A DNA stretch of 26,419 nucleotides from a virus. Shown in pieces: positions 3,749 to 19,107 of this stretch; position 1 is the stretch's first letter, and each line of letters begins with the position of its first letter. The notes under the pieces were generated by a model that saw only the letters and a list, made by a program, of their open reading frames with translations, was not told the origin of the DNA and ran no database searches. Made by a program: the position numbers and the translations under genes. Location of the stretch: IMG/VR virus record IMGVR_UViG_3300049810_000231, positions 1 through 26,419 of that record; one strand, 5' to 3'.

Positions 3749-5941
3749 TTAATTTAAGTCTATAAAAGAATTTGTGTTATATCTATTTATACTATTTATA
3801 TTGTTTGATTGTATGGTTTCACTTCCAAATTGTTCAATAGTCTGATTTAAATTAAACTTTTTATGACTATATTTAGGAACAATACCTTTATTATTAAAGT
3901 AGTTATTATCTTGTATGGTTCTTGATCCATCTAAAAGGTGATTGAGCATTACCTTTAAATACATTCCAGTTTCTTTTGCTCTGGATTCAACTACCATTGA
4001 AGAGCCTAATCTAACAGAAGGATCTAAAACATAACCATTACCTTCATTGGTAATATTTATACTAGATATTTCTGTTGGCGTCAGAAGAGCTATACACGTT
4101 GCACCACCACCGCCTCCACCAACTATCTGTACCTCAGGTGCAGAGGTATAACCAGAACCAGGTTCTATAATATACAAACCATCAACTTGTCCTAACTCAT
4201 TAATAGTTGCTCTTGCAGTTGCTCTTGTACCACTAGGAGGTAAAGCAATAATGACTGTAGGCTCACTTGTATAACTGCTACCCAAGCTTGATAAACGTAG
4301 TAGTTCAATCGAAGTGGGTTCCATAACAAACTCTGCAGTTGCCTGAACATTACTCTGTAGTAATACACCATCTTGATCTTTAGCAGTTGGAGGGCCGAGT
4401 GTAATAATAGGTGGCAAACGGTATAATTTATTCGCGTCTGTGGAATAAGTAATGGCACCAACTTTACCAGCCCCACTAGCAGGAGCAGGAACATTAGCCG
4501 CTATTTCTGTATAACCACTTCCACCCTGTGTTACTGTAATACTGTCAATACCACCTTCTACATTTAATACAGCTGTTGCCGCGGCTCCAGTACCTGTACC
4601 TGAGAAAGTAATTGTTGGGGGTGAAGTATAATTATGACCTTGGTTAACTATCTCTACCGAAGTTACAACACCACTTGAAACAACAGGCGAAAGAATTGCT
4701 GTCTTATTTAATAGAGCCTTTGGTTGAGGTCCGAACATAGCTGCGAACATCTCTACAAGTAATGGTAAGTCTTCCGCACCAATAACACCAGGTTGAATAC
4801 CAGGCATAGAGGAGAGAGTAAACCTATTAGTTCTACCATACGCATTCACTAATTGATCTACTATTAAGCCAGTCTCTAAATTTTTAGTAGGTACATTAAT
4901 ACCCTTTTCTACCTTACCATCACCGAGAGCATCTCTTACTAGGTTAATAAGGATCAGAATTTCACCAAAGAAGATAAATCCAGCAGGATGTACTAATCTG
5001 TTAAACGTATATTCCCAGTCAGTTAAATTTTTACCTGTTTTAATGAGGTAAGAGTATTTTTGGTATCTGTAACTATCATGTATCTTTATTTTCTTTTCAG
5101 AAAGAAATCCCTTAGTAGAAATAAACTGATTAGTATCACTGAACCAATCTCCTGATGAAGGTATTAAAGTATTATCATAAGGTCTCTCAATTTCAACTTC
5201 TTCGTTAAAGAGTAACCTAAAGAATGTCTCAATAGAATCAGAGGAACCTCTCACCTTATAGAAGTCTACGATTCTTTTATAAAGCGTATTTTTATTTACC
5301 AGTAGTCCTCTTGGAATGGCAGAGGCAATTTCTTTCTGCATCATTTCTAGGTACTGATTACTCGCGTCTAGCTCACTATCAGAGTTCTTGTCAATGTCCA
5401 TAAAGTCCTCTATGGCATTTAAGACATAAGAGGGACCAGGACCTACCCAATTTTTAATCGGTGTGGTTAAAGAGGCAACATCACCATTGTATGCAGATAA
5501 ACCACTGATGGTCATTGTCTTGCCTATTTCTGATGTACTATTTCTTAATGAGCCAGGTAGCTCGTTACCATTTGATATAGCCACATTAGCACTATTCAAA
5601 GCCACTGTAGCAGTATTACCGTCTTGTCCCTTAATCACTAATGTAGAGCTATTACCCTGTTCATCTGTATAAAACTGATTGTTTTCATTGTCAGGATCAG
5701 AGATACGAAAACGTGCAACGCCATCCAAAACTAGGTCCGTATGAGTCTCTTCTTGCTCATATATAAACTCATTGAGGTTCATAAACTCGTAGTATTTCTC
5801 TAAGAGTAACTGAATACCTGTATCACCAGACGCCTCTAAAATCTCACTCGGTATTACCTGTTGTATTCTCAGATTCTCTTTAGTCTTTTTCTTACTAGAG
5901 GCTACTGTTTCAATGTACCCTGGTGAATTATTCTCTGCCAT
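3749..5941 (-). CDS. Baseplate wedge protein at the gp7 position
   Basis: 730 aa; T4 gp7 has 1032. I do not see direct T4 gp7 motifs. The call rests on position between gp6 and gp8, which is where T4 has gene 7, and on a segment at about 40-65 and 195-320 (LLLEKYYEFMN, YKRIVDFYKVRGSS, FFRLLFNEEVEIERPYDN) that I associate with large baseplate proteins of marine T4-like phages. Residues about 424-640 hold some five GSGYTSxPxVxIxGxGxGAxAxA units, one of them with a run of seven glycines. Such beta repeats suggest an exposed elongated domain. The gene starts 1 nt after the gp6 stop. It could also be a lineage-specific wedge protein that replaces gp7. Confidence 0.6.
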   Translation of the reverse strand: MAENNSPGYIETVASSKKKTKENLRIQQVIPSEILEASGDTGIQLLLEKYYEFMNLNEFIYEQEETHTDLVLDGVARFRISDPDNENNQFYTDEQGNSSTLVIKGQDGNTATVALNSANVAISNGNELPGSLRNSTSEIGKTMTISGLSAYNGDVASLTTPIKNWVGPGPSYVLNAIEDFMDIDKNSDSELDASNQYLEMMQKEIASAIPRGLLVNKNTLYKRIVDFYKVRGSSDSIETFFRLLFNEEVEIERPYDNTLIPSSGDWFSDTNQFISTKGFLSEKKIKIHDSYRYQKYSYLIKTGKNLTDWEYTFNRLVHPAGFIFFGEILILINLVRDALGDGKVEKGINVPTKNLETGLIVDQLVNAYGRTNRFTLSSMPGIQPGVIGAEDLPLLVEMFAAMFGPQPKALLNKTAILSPVVSSGVVTSVEIVNQGHNYTSPPTITFSGTGTGAAATAVLNVEGGIDSITVTQGGSGYTEIAANVPAPASGAGKVGAITYSTDANKLYRLPPIITLGPPTAKDQDGVLLQSNVQATAEFVMEPTSIELLRLSSLGSSYTSEPTVIIALPPSGTRATARATINELGQVDGLYIIEPGSGYTSAPEVQIVGGGGGGATCIALLTPTEISSINITNEGNGYVLDPSVRLGSSMVVESRAKETGMYLKVMLNHLLDGSRTIQDNNYFNNKGIVPKYSHKKFNLNQTIEQFGSETIQSNNINSINRYNTNSFIDLN
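3784..3800 (-). promoter_or_regulatory. Tandem T4-type late promoters upstream of gp8
   Basis: Two exact TATAAATA elements on the minus strand (3800-3793 and 3791-3784), one base apart. They lie inside the last codons of the gp7-position gene and point at gp8, giving a leader of about 55-65 nt. T4 late promoters consist of just this -10 element read by gp55-RNA polymerase. The region is AT-rich, so chance is possible for one copy but less likely for both. Confidence 0.6.
4022..4672 (-). repeat. Five-fold GYTSxPxVxI protein repeat in gp7-position gene
   Basis: Encodes residues about 424-640. Units begin with S-I/V-x-I-x-x-x-G-x-x-Y-T-S and are seen at about 426, 465, 544, 586 and 626. The unit also occurs in gp8. 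The copies have diverged at the DNA level. Confidence 0.65.
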
Positions 5942-7800: not shown

Positions 7801-8277
7801 CTACCTTAATCTACGTAGTACAATCTCGACTGTGCTTTCTTGGTCAGATTGTGTAATTAAAAATTTTACTGTTATTCTATAAGCGTTTCTATCAGATAAA
7901 TCATCAACAGCCACATATATAGGCTTCACTCTTGGTTCGTCCTTTAATACTCTCTTAATATTATCCTCTAATGCAAGTTCTGTTATAGCATCAGCAGGTT
8001 CAAATAATAACCCTCTTAAATTAGCACCTGTAGCGGCTTGAAAGGGGCGTTCATGGAAATTAGTCAGTATTAGGTTACGTAATGAGTTCTTTACTGCCTG
8101 GTCATCTCTTAATGGTATAATATCTTTTCTGATCTTATGCAGTGTTAGCTTTAAGTCTAAATCACTATATCCCTTTGAACGAGATACATTAGATGCTTTA
8201 TTCACTCTACCTGAAACACTTCTATCTGATAGTATAGAAGGTGAGGTGATTATGTCTCCGTCATTTATATTAGCCAT
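7801..8277 (-). CDS. 25: Baseplate wedge protein gp25
   Basis: 158 aa; T4 gp25 has 132. Residues about 38-100 show the gp25 family core: YSDLDLKLTL, AVKNSLRNLILTNFHERPF, GANLRGLLFEP. The C-terminus TVEIVLRRLR also fits. gp25 is the wedge component around which the sheath initiates; the old name 'lysozyme' for this family does not reflect a cell-wall activity. The first ATG lies only 5 nt after a perfect late promoter, so late mRNA would be leaderless. Read-through mRNA from gp5 would offer a weak AAAAGG ribosome site. Confidence 0.9.
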   Translation of the reverse strand: MANINDGDIITSPSILSDRSVSGRVNKASNVSRSKGYSDLDLKLTLHKIRKDIIPLRDDQAVKNSLRNLILTNFHERPFQAATGANLRGLLFEPADAITELALEDNIKRVLKDEPRVKPIYVAVDDLSDRNAYRITVKFLITQSDQESTVEIVLRRLR

Positions 8278-8282
8278 ATAGT

Positions 8283-8290
8283 TATTTATA
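8283..8290 (-). promoter_or_regulatory. T4-type late promoter abutting the gp25 start
   Basis: Exact TATAAATA on the minus strand, with only ACTAT between it and the ATG of gp25. In T4 late promoters the start point lies about 6 nt downstream of this box, which here is the A of the ATG. The 20 bases 8271-8290 (TATAAATAACTATATGGCTA) recur identically at 12563-12582. Confidence 0.7.
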
Positions 8291-11259: not shown

Positions 11260-12063
11260 TTATGCCTCTGATTTACTCTTTGGATAATCAAAATTCTGTT
11301 GTACCTTGCTTGGTGGTCTTTCTGAACCACCTTCACCAGGTACGTGATATAGATCATTACGAGTAAGTTGTCTTTGTTCTTGAAAGGATAGACCAATAGT
11401 TATGTCTGTAGGTGCACCGTCTTTATGAAACATATTCGCATTATTATTATATGATGCGTTCATACCAGTTAGATATGAATCAAAAATAAACGGCATATAT
11501 TCATTTACCTTCTTACCTTTCATAAATTTAATACGAAAGAGTGGTGGGTATTTAAGAGCAAATTCACCCTCTCTCTTTGCATACATATACTTTCTAAATG
11601 TATGTTCAATAACACGAATGGTCTCTGCTTCTTTTGAATTAGATGCAACTAAATTAAAGTTTAATTCAAATGTACGAATAGACGCACCTTCATATGTAAG
11701 TGTTGATTGGTTATTTAATGCAACTCCTGCTTTAACTGTAGATGCAGCTGCCACACTTAAATCATCACCTATACCCATTTTCTGCATGAGAGCAGTACCA
11801 ATGGCTGTAGCTTCTAAATCAGTGGCTAATTTCTTATTACCTTCTTCGTCTTTTTGCATCATACCTTGCACTGCATTAATTGTGCCTAGGTCTATGTTAC
11901 CAAAGTTTGCACCATCACCTAGTGAAATACCTGATGGTACATATAAGTGAATTTTAAACACATCAGAGTCAAATTCTTTACCTATGATCTCGAAAGAAAC
12001 GTGATGCCCACCCTTTGTGACCTCTTCTCCGAGTGTATGTGGAAATGCTATAATTGATGACAT
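11260..12063 (-). CDS. 48: Baseplate tail tube cap gp48
   Basis: 267 aa; T4 gp48 has 364. The diagnostic part is the C-terminal half: ASIRTFELNFNLVASNSKEAETIRVIEHTFRKYMY at about 144-178, YPPLFRIKFM, then FIFDSYLTGMNASYNNNANMFHKDGAPTDITIGLSFQEQRQLTRND, which matches the tube-cap fold (late residues DGAPT and SFxExxxLTR). The closely related gp54 is a possible alternative. The N-terminus starts IAFPHTLG. It is first in the minus-strand late operon, with a late promoter at 12115-12108 about 45 nt upstream. Confidence 0.82.
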   Translation of the reverse strand: MSSIIAFPHTLGEEVTKGGHHVSFEIIGKEFDSDVFKIHLYVPSGISLGDGANFGNIDLGTINAVQGMMQKDEEGNKKLATDLEATAIGTALMQKMGIGDDLSVAAASTVKAGVALNNQSTLTYEGASIRTFELNFNLVASNSKEAETIRVIEHTFRKYMYAKREGEFALKYPPLFRIKFMKGKKVNEYMPFIFDSYLTGMNASYNNNANMFHKDGAPTDITIGLSFQEQRQLTRNDLYHVPGEGGSERPPSKVQQNFDYPKSKSEA

Positions 12064-12073
12064 AATTTACCCT

Positions 12074-12081
12074 TATAAATA
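12074..12081 (+). promoter_or_regulatory. T4-type late promoter for the gp4 operon
   Basis: Exact TATAAATA on the plus strand, 34 nt before the gp4 ATG. Its transcript would start near 12087. It faces the minus-strand late promoter at 12115-12108, so the two divergent mRNAs would overlap by some 15 nt. Confidence 0.75.
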
Positions 12082-12107
12082 GTAATACATTTAATATTAT
12101 ATAAGGT

Positions 12108-12115
12108 TATTTATA
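12108..12115 (-). promoter_or_regulatory. T4-type late promoter for the gp48 baseplate operon
   Basis: Exact TATAAATA on the minus strand, directly beside the ATG of the oppositely oriented gp4 gene. Its transcript would start near 12102 and reach the gp48 ATG after about 40 nt. With 12073-12081 it forms a 9-bp inverted repeat. Confidence 0.75.
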
Positions 12116-12562
12116 ATGGCTTACAAAGGAAAATATCAAATAAAGGACACAAAAAAGTACTTAGGTGACCCTACAAAGGTTACATATAGGTCTTTATGGG
12201 AACGTCAGGCCTTTAAATGGTGTGAATCAAACCCTCGTGTTAAACGCTGGAACAGTGAAGAGATTGTTGTTCCCTATAAGTGTAAGACAGACAATAAGTT
12301 ACATAGGTATTATGTTGATTTATTAGTAGAGTTTGATAACAGAGATATTATTCTTGTTGAAATCAAACCTAAGAAAGAGACTATGGCACCTAAGAAGCCC
12401 AGTCGCAAGACAAAACGATACATTAATGAGGTTACCACTTATATTAAAAATACATCTAAGTGGACAGCTGCCGATCAATACGCCAAGCATAAAGGTTGGA
12501 AGTTCCAAGTGTGGACAGAAGATACTTTAAAGAATCTTGGTATAAAACTACTAAAGAGTTGA
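12116..12562 (+). CDS. 4: Head completion protein gp4
   Basis: 148 aa, the length of T4 gp4 (150). The family core is plain: SLWERQAFKWCESNPRVKRW at 26-45, then SEEIVVPYKCKTDNKLHRYYVDLLVEF and ILVEIKPKKET. The conserved E (WER), D (YVD) and E-x-K (VEIKP) match the arrangement of a PD-(D/E)XK nuclease fold, as proposed for the gp4 family. In T4 gp4 acts after DNA packaging, before tails join. It is first in the plus-strand late operon, with a late promoter 34 nt upstream and an AAGG ribosome site. Confidence 0.9.
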   Translation: MAYKGKYQIKDTKKYLGDPTKVTYRSLWERQAFKWCESNPRVKRWNSEEIVVPYKCKTDNKLHRYYVDLLVEFDNRDIILVEIKPKKETMAPKKPSRKTKRYINEVTTYIKNTSKWTAADQYAKHKGWKFQVWTEDTLKNLGIKLLKS

Positions 12563-12570
12563 TATAAATA
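12563..12570 (+). promoter_or_regulatory. T4-type late promoter abutting the start of the 12576 gene
   Basis: Exact TATAAATA beginning right after the gp4 stop codon, with ACTAT before the next ATG. The 20 bases 12563-12582 are identical to the gp25 promoter/start on the minus strand (8290-8271). A start point 6 nt downstream of the box would be the A of the ATG. Confidence 0.7.
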
Positions 12571-12575
12571 ACTAT

Positions 12576-13169
12576 ATGGCTAGTTTATTCGATACACTAC
12601 AAGCAAATGCATTCAGGTCTGGAGTCCAGGCACGAACAAAAGCATCTAGGAAATGGTTTGAAAAGAACGTAGAGAAGTTAAAGATGCCTTCTCGTAATGC
12701 ATTATTAAAAGACTCTGCCCTGGATCCTGTTAGTAAACAGATTGCAGGTAATATGTATATGTATTTCTATGATCCAAAGCATAAGAAAACATTACCTTAC
12801 TATGATAGATTCCCTTTGACTATTATGTTACAGCCAGTAAAAGGTGGGTTCCAGGGGTTAAATTTACACTATCTACAGCCTGACATACGTGCTAAATTCC
12901 TTGATGAATTAATGAAGCTAGCGCCAAGTAAGGTAAAGAATAATAGTAGGTTAACCAAGTTAAGATATGACTTGTTACAGTCTACCCGTAAATATAAAGA
13001 ATTCAGACCATGCTTTAAAACATATCTAACAAGTCAGGTAGCCTCAAGAATGGTTAGGGTACCAATGACCGAATGGGAAATTGCAGTATTCTTACCAACA
13101 GAACAGTTTAAGAAATCTGGTAAACAGAATGTTTGGAAAGATTCACTTAAAATTGCGAGACAATCATGA
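12576..13169 (+). CDS. Conserved T4-like phage protein of unknown function
   Basis: 197 aa, very basic (many K and R). The most striking part is at about 60-110: GNMYMYFYDP, LPYYDRFPLTIMLQP, GGFQGLNLHYLQPDIRAKFLDEL. I have a memory of this pattern in marine T4-like phages next to gp4, as a structural or hypothetical protein, but know no role. The neighbours (gp4 before, a tail-tube-fold protein after with a 4-nt ATGA overlap) suggest a part in virion completion or tail assembly. T4 gene 2 lies beside gene 4, but I see no support for gp2. Confidence 0.75.
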   Translation: MASLFDTLQANAFRSGVQARTKASRKWFEKNVEKLKMPSRNALLKDSALDPVSKQIAGNMYMYFYDPKHKKTLPYYDRFPLTIMLQPVKGGFQGLNLHYLQPDIRAKFLDELMKLAPSKVKNNSRLTKLRYDLLQSTRKYKEFRPCFKTYLTSQVASRMVRVPMTEWEIAVFLPTEQFKKSGKQNVWKDSLKIARQS

Positions 13170-18861: not shown

Positions 18862-19107
18862 CTATACTGGTAGCTTGTTGCCACCCTTTGATTTAATTAA
18901 ATTGAGACCATGGGCCTCGTTTTCTATCTTTGCTTTAAGTGAATCGGTTAATAAACGTTTTAGGTTTGAATAATCCATTCCTCTCTGCTCGATAATCATT
19001 ACCGCTGCATCTATATAAGATGTGTTAGGTGTCTTAGATACAAGTGTCTCCACTGCTAACGAGAATCTCTTCTTCGTCATTATTTTATGTTCTATAATAT
19101 CATTCAT
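18862..19107 (-). CDS. 33: Late transcription coactivator gp33
   Basis: 81 aa from the ATG at 19107, chosen because it has an AAGGA ribosome site and overlaps the previous stop as ATGA; an ATG 7 codons earlier lacks both. T4 gp33 has 112 aa. Residues about 22-65 (SYIDAAVMIIEQRGMDYSNL, LKAKIENEAHGLNLI) align with T4 (SYLEATTAFLEENSIPETQF, IIEKIQSEAIDENLL), the part that binds the RNA polymerase flap. The T4 C-terminus that binds the sliding clamp (LDFLL) is absent; this one ends GGNKLPV. It works with sigma factor gp55 and the clamp at TATAAATA promoters. Confidence 0.75.
   Translation of the reverse strand: MNDIIEHKIMTKKRFSLAVETLVSKTPNTSYIDAAVMIIEQRGMDYSNLKRLLTDSLKAKIENEAHGLNLIKSKGGNKLPV

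Follow-up and report, generated by a model that had tools for sequence, protein, structure and literature searches.

Two genes of one phage that encode unrelated proteins begin with the same 20 bp, and the question raised by this locus is why they should do so. In the window, a 26,419-nt stretch of viral DNA that was analysed at its full length, TATAAATAACTATATGGCTA occurs exactly twice, at 12563–12582 on the plus strand and at 8290–8271 on the minus strand. No third copy was found in the 26,419 nt when up to three mismatches were allowed, and there was none in 100 dinucleotide shuffles of the window. The 20-bp observation is therefore confirmed. Two explanations for it had been put forward in the original prediction: constraint on a leaderless late start module, or movement of a promoter cassette.

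The shared start and its two genes

TATAAATAACTATATGGCTA consists of the 8-bp box TATAAATA, the 5-nt spacer ACTAT, the hexamer ATGGCT, which provides codons 1–2, and a final A; the match thus spans promoter, spacer and two codons, as had been described. On the plus strand the box (12563..12570, exact at 8/8 positions) begins directly after the stop codon of gp4, and is followed by the spacer (12571..12575) and the ATG (12576..12578) of gp2, a DNA end protector of 197 aa (12576..13169; PHROG 429, E 6e-51; tblastn against 1980 phage records). On the minus strand the box (8283..8290, again 8/8), the spacer (8278..8282, assigned by exact match and orthologue comparison) and the ATG (8275..8277) belong to gp25, a baseplate wedge subunit of 158 aa (7801..8277; PHROG 261, E 3e-37; Pfam PF04965, GPW_gp25). 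The view that the two proteins are unrelated was borne out by BLASTP of gp25 against gp2, which found no similarity. Comparison of the two start regions showed that identity ends at the 20-mer, the flanks differing immediately on both sides.

The window comes from a T4-like phage and carries gp25, gp5, gp53, tail tube cap, gp4 (head closure, the upstream neighbour of gp2; 12116..12562, plus strand; PHROG 218, E 1e-54), gp2, tail tube and baseplate hub genes; it also encodes gp33, gp32 and a helicase loader. In the textbook case of T4, late promoters have the box TATAAATA and depend on gp55, gp33 and gp45. Of the late-transcription genes, gp33, the co-activator of T4-type late transcription, was found inside the window (18862..19083, minus strand; PHROG 254, ‘late promoter transcriptional regulator’, E 1e-17), and gp55 and gp45 fall outside the fragment. 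When 8 kb of the window was searched at the nucleotide level against the phage collection, no match was found.

Distance and spacer letters in relatives

As the record is a fragment of 26,419 bases only, wider searches for the 20-mer and for gene starts were run on relatives. Orthologues of gp25 and gp2 were collected from IMG/VR, and the loci of these marine relatives yielded a sample of 6,355 unique ORF starts, gene starts on uncultured contigs being ORF-based. The enrichment at gene starts that had been suggested as a check was found: TATAAATA lies 5 nt before the ATG at 116 of the 6,355 starts, 6 nt before it at 9, and at any other spacing from 0 to 20 nt at 9 or fewer, counts which are dominated by the gp25 and gp2 families through which the loci were chosen and which are not phylogenetically independent. 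The box also lies 5 nt from the ATG in 13 protein families other than gp25 and gp2, whereas the other spacings average 0.5 families each (Poisson p ~1e-14). General AT-richness was rejected as a cause, since permuted 8-mers give no such peak; each of 55 other arrangements of the eight letters occurs at most 4 times at spacing 5. An enrichment at spacing 11 was also rejected, its first count of 6 having fallen to 1 when the ATG was required to be the main start. In pattern scans of IMG/VR, ORF starts accounted, among the matches listed, for 106 of 116 at spacing 5 and 80 of 103 at spacing 8. At a few starts the box lies 8 nt before the ATG, with a predicted leader of ~3 nt; these include Mosig (MT647606) at 89816, which is gp25, and HTVC008M (NC_020484) at 59698 and 109413.

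In nearly all gp25 and gp2 orthologues the ATG is preceded, at a short and fixed distance, by TATAAATA or occasionally CATAAATA. For gp25 this distance is 5 nt in 99 of 102 orthologous contigs; for gp2 it is mostly 5 nt (56 contigs), sometimes 6 nt (27), with a group of 15 at 21 nt. The letters between box and ATG vary, with 13 spacer types at gp25 and 18 at gp2 (GATAT, ACTAT, GTACT, GTTAT, CTAGT, AAGGT and others) and mixed letters at positions -3 to -5. The distance is conserved and the spacer letters are not.

This bears directly on the shared 20 bp. Box, spacer length, T at -1 and ATG are fixed by the module, and GCT is a common second codon, so that only a few free bases had to coincide. 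Identical spacers at gp25 and gp2 have a probability of ~0.04, and within contigs 1 of 23 gp25/gp2 spacer pairs is identical where 0.7 are expected. Nor is the 20-mer confined to the window; 22 IMG/VR stretches contain it, their flanks differ, and the genes it precedes are diverged gp25 genes, gp2, an HNH-like gene and another virion-like gene. Its recurrence before several genes in different surroundings fits convergence under constraint better than cassette movement.

The alternative, that a piece of ~20 bp was copied between the two gene starts in the lineage of the window, would account for an exact identity at two unrelated genes of one phage, but it is very improbable. The flanks diverge at once on both sides, paired spacers agree at chance level, and the other genes with the 20-mer have unrelated flanks. 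Moreover, the flank of gp2 in the window is an ordinary gp4 end, alignable with relatives, and the box sits there just as in relatives with AGTAT, ATACT or GTTAT spacers; the closest gp2 relatives have AGTAT or ATACT at the same place, one or a few bases different, in an alignable flank. A mobile promoter cassette would be recognised by shared flanks or joint change and by sporadic presence among relatives, and these signs were not found.

One exact 20-mer, at 4962–4981 of a 190,865-bp IMG/VR record (IMGVR_UViG_3300021364_003460, L241), precedes a short basic protein resembling HNH homing endonucleases, possibly a mobile gene using the module.

A predicted transcription start at the ATG

The T4 late box spans positions -13 to -6 of the transcription start (PMC1524935), about one helical turn before it (PMC2988020). 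If these positions are carried over, a 5-nt spacer would place +1 on the A of the ATG, at 12576 for gp2 and, in the same way, at 8277 for gp25, and the late mRNA would be leaderless. Base -1 is T or C at 114 of the 116 starts with the box at 5 nt, compared with 44% at other starts. A pyrimidine followed by a purine is the usual transcription initiator. Shine–Dalgarno (SD) 4-mers at -4 to -13 occur at 0% of these starts, as against 42% of the other starts whose ORFs have 100 codons or more, a difference due in part to the box itself occupying the region. The start codon is ATG at 128 of 129 starts with spacing 5–6. Upstream of the box there is no conserved -35 element, relative entropy being mostly below 0.3 bits per position and at its highest 0.46 (48 representatives). 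The boxes stand before late virion genes: gp25 and gp2 in the window, gp4 and others in relatives.

A further sign comes from terminators. A strong hairpin with a T-run lies within 45 nt before the box at 13 of 146 sites, compared with 7 of 2000 random positions, and mostly ends a few nt from the box. Transcripts from upstream should not reach a gene whose box follows so closely on an intrinsic terminator. The sites include gp2 of the cultured phages HTVC008M and Mosig; in Mosig the annotated start of gp2 is exactly the ATG of the module. In five relatives (L121, L126, L128, L131 and L141) the leaderless module stands at the start of gp4, immediately after a terminator, whereas gp4 of the window is leadered.

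Taken with the architecture, the spacing and its conservation, these observations make it highly probable that TATAAATA-N5-ATG serves as late promoter and gene start in one, giving leaderless late mRNA, the position of +1 being taken from T4. The late RNA polymerase (host core with gp55, gp33 and the gp45 clamp) would bind the box and open the AT-rich spacer, and RNA synthesis would start six bases further on, at the A of the ATG, which follows a pyrimidine. The resulting mRNA would have neither a 5′ leader nor an SD, and ribosomes would initiate on its 5′-terminal AUG. In this scheme we infer leaderless translation, the use of gp55 and the position at which transcription starts. It is thus probable that, across a large group of marine T4-like phages, the transcripts of some virion genes start precisely at the AUG. 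The original idea of a leaderless late start module under constraint is strongly supported in this form, with the constraint falling on the box, the exact distance, the pyrimidine at -1 and the ATG; the spacer letters, with their many types, are not part of it.

The box could instead be an internal late promoter that merely adds transcripts, with re-initiation or a distant SD on read-through polycistronic mRNA as the main source of the protein, and the 5-nt spacing reflecting compact gene packing. Both genes of the window lie behind co-directional genes, so that a read-through mRNA could also serve them: gp2 starts 13 nt past the gp4 stop and gp25 29 nt past gp5, with AAAAGG immediately before the gp25 box, 13 nt from the ATG. 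An SD-like 4-mer is present at -13 to -24 in 28% of starts with the box at 5 nt. This explanation is nevertheless unlikely. Packing leaves unexplained both the pyrimidine at -1 and the exact distance, as there is almost nothing at 0–4 or 7–15 nt; nor does it account for those starts that a terminator, with its end close to the box, separates from the preceding gene.

Where the same gene does have a leader it carries an SD, which also argues against read-through. The gp2 clade with 21-nt spacing reads TATAAATAGTTAT-ACAGGAGAAAAACTTT-ATGGC where related contigs read TATAAATAGTTAT-ATGGC. The inserted ACAGGAGAAAAACTTT, between GTTAT and ATG, is an SD; the box is unchanged, and the leader was gained together with the SD. 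In the tree the leadered gp2 sequences form one branch (98/95) nested among leaderless ones. The gp25 of Melnitz is similar, with the box, 16 nt and GGAG.

It is scarcely credible that the motif is a purely translational signal, an AU-rich or Kozak-like context that resembles a late box by chance. Bacteroidetes do have SD-less starts in Kozak-like contexts, according to one report (PMC6847099). The full 8-mer is however the T4 late promoter, and it is also carried by leadered starts in the same marine phages, 16–60 nt upstream; in addition, the spacer is mixed at -3 to -5, and an SD-like 4-mer precedes roughly one in two of the remaining starts of these genomes.

Known systems and distribution

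The preferred reading, a late promoter fused to a leaderless start, shares with the T4 late promoter the 8-bp box, the lack of a conserved upstream element, an AT-rich stretch past the box and a gp33 gene in the window. It differs in distance. In T4 there are 22 boxes that an ORF start follows within 70 nt, none of them less than 13 nt from the ATG and 20 at 13–30 nt; this leaves a leader with room for an SD, whereas the marine module joins box to ATG at 5 nt. The lambda cI repressor gene is another case of a phage mRNA starting at the AUG, transcribed without a leader from PRM, a sigma-70 promoter; there, however, a single repressor gene is concerned and not a recurrent architecture of late genes.

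Bacterial leaderless genes have a -10-like TA signal ~12 bp before the start codon (PMC3160421). Like the module, they have a promoter element positioned for transcription to start at the start codon, and no SD. Their element is of the host sigma-70 type (TANNNT), in contrast to the phage late box found here, which serves virion genes of a lytic phage with SDs at about half of its other starts. An unusual translation start has also been described for gp25 itself. T4 gene 25 has a split ribosome-binding site, in which an SD 27 nt upstream is brought near by a hairpin (PMC3014915), and the split site is missing from distant T4 relatives (review, PMC3014915). The T4 start is leadered, polycistronic and dependent on RNA structure, while no leader is predicted here.

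In cultured phages, independently annotated starts fit the module in HTVC008M (gp2, gp25, CsgF, 2OG-Fe oxygenase, baseplate wedge initiator and a small gene after the major head protein), in Mosig (gp2, nitroreductase, hydroxylase and hydrolase, some with A or C as first box letter), in Melnitz (gp2 and adenylate cyclase) and in P-SSM4 (NC_006884; plastoquinol terminal oxidase and a small gene after a photosystem II gene, positions 107303 and 172868). The cyanophages Syn9 and S-PM2 have no starts with the box at 5 nt. T4 has no module start, its one pattern match not starting an ORF of 50 aa, and C48C1 has one match to the 16-bp pattern, at a short ORF. The 16-bp pattern alone was absent from the Sinorhizobium, Stenotrophomonas, Rhizobium, Aeromonas, Acidovorax, Ochrobactrum, Desulfovibrio and P-SSM2 phages tried.

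The open-access literature yielded no report that connects late promoters of the T4 type with leaderless mRNA. Published cyanophage promoter searches sought boxes in intergenic space, and in the available portions of these reports use of the box-to-ATG distance was not seen. The phages with the module include cultured SAR11 phages, and its genes include virion genes such as gp2 and gp25. If the module is confirmed, part of the virion of a lytic phage is made from leaderless mRNA, and a preference of infected cells for leaderless initiation becomes directly testable; the module would also fix start codons in annotation and supply a minimal promoter-plus-start element. More tentatively, marine T4-like phages may possess a compact ‘plug-in’ late unit of ~16 bp, comprising promoter, transcription start and translation start, for essential virion genes and acquired cargo genes alike, which would commit part of late protein synthesis to leaderless initiation. 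The cargo genes in this still doubtful proposal would be plastoquinol oxidase (P-SSM4), CsgF and 2OG-Fe oxygenase (HTVC008M), nitroreductase (Mosig) and adenylate cyclase (Melnitz).

A separate arrangement of late boxes was observed between the divergent tail tube cap (minus strand) and gp4 (plus strand) genes of the window, at 12063–12116. Two TATAAATA boxes face each other here, at 12074 (plus) and 12115 (minus), each ~35–45 nt upstream of its own ATG and accompanied by an SD, and the predicted transcripts overlap in antisense by ~15 bp. The face-to-face layout recurs in marine relatives, Melnitz, Mosig and C48C1, and gp4 of T4 is preceded by TATAAATA-N7-TATTTATA.
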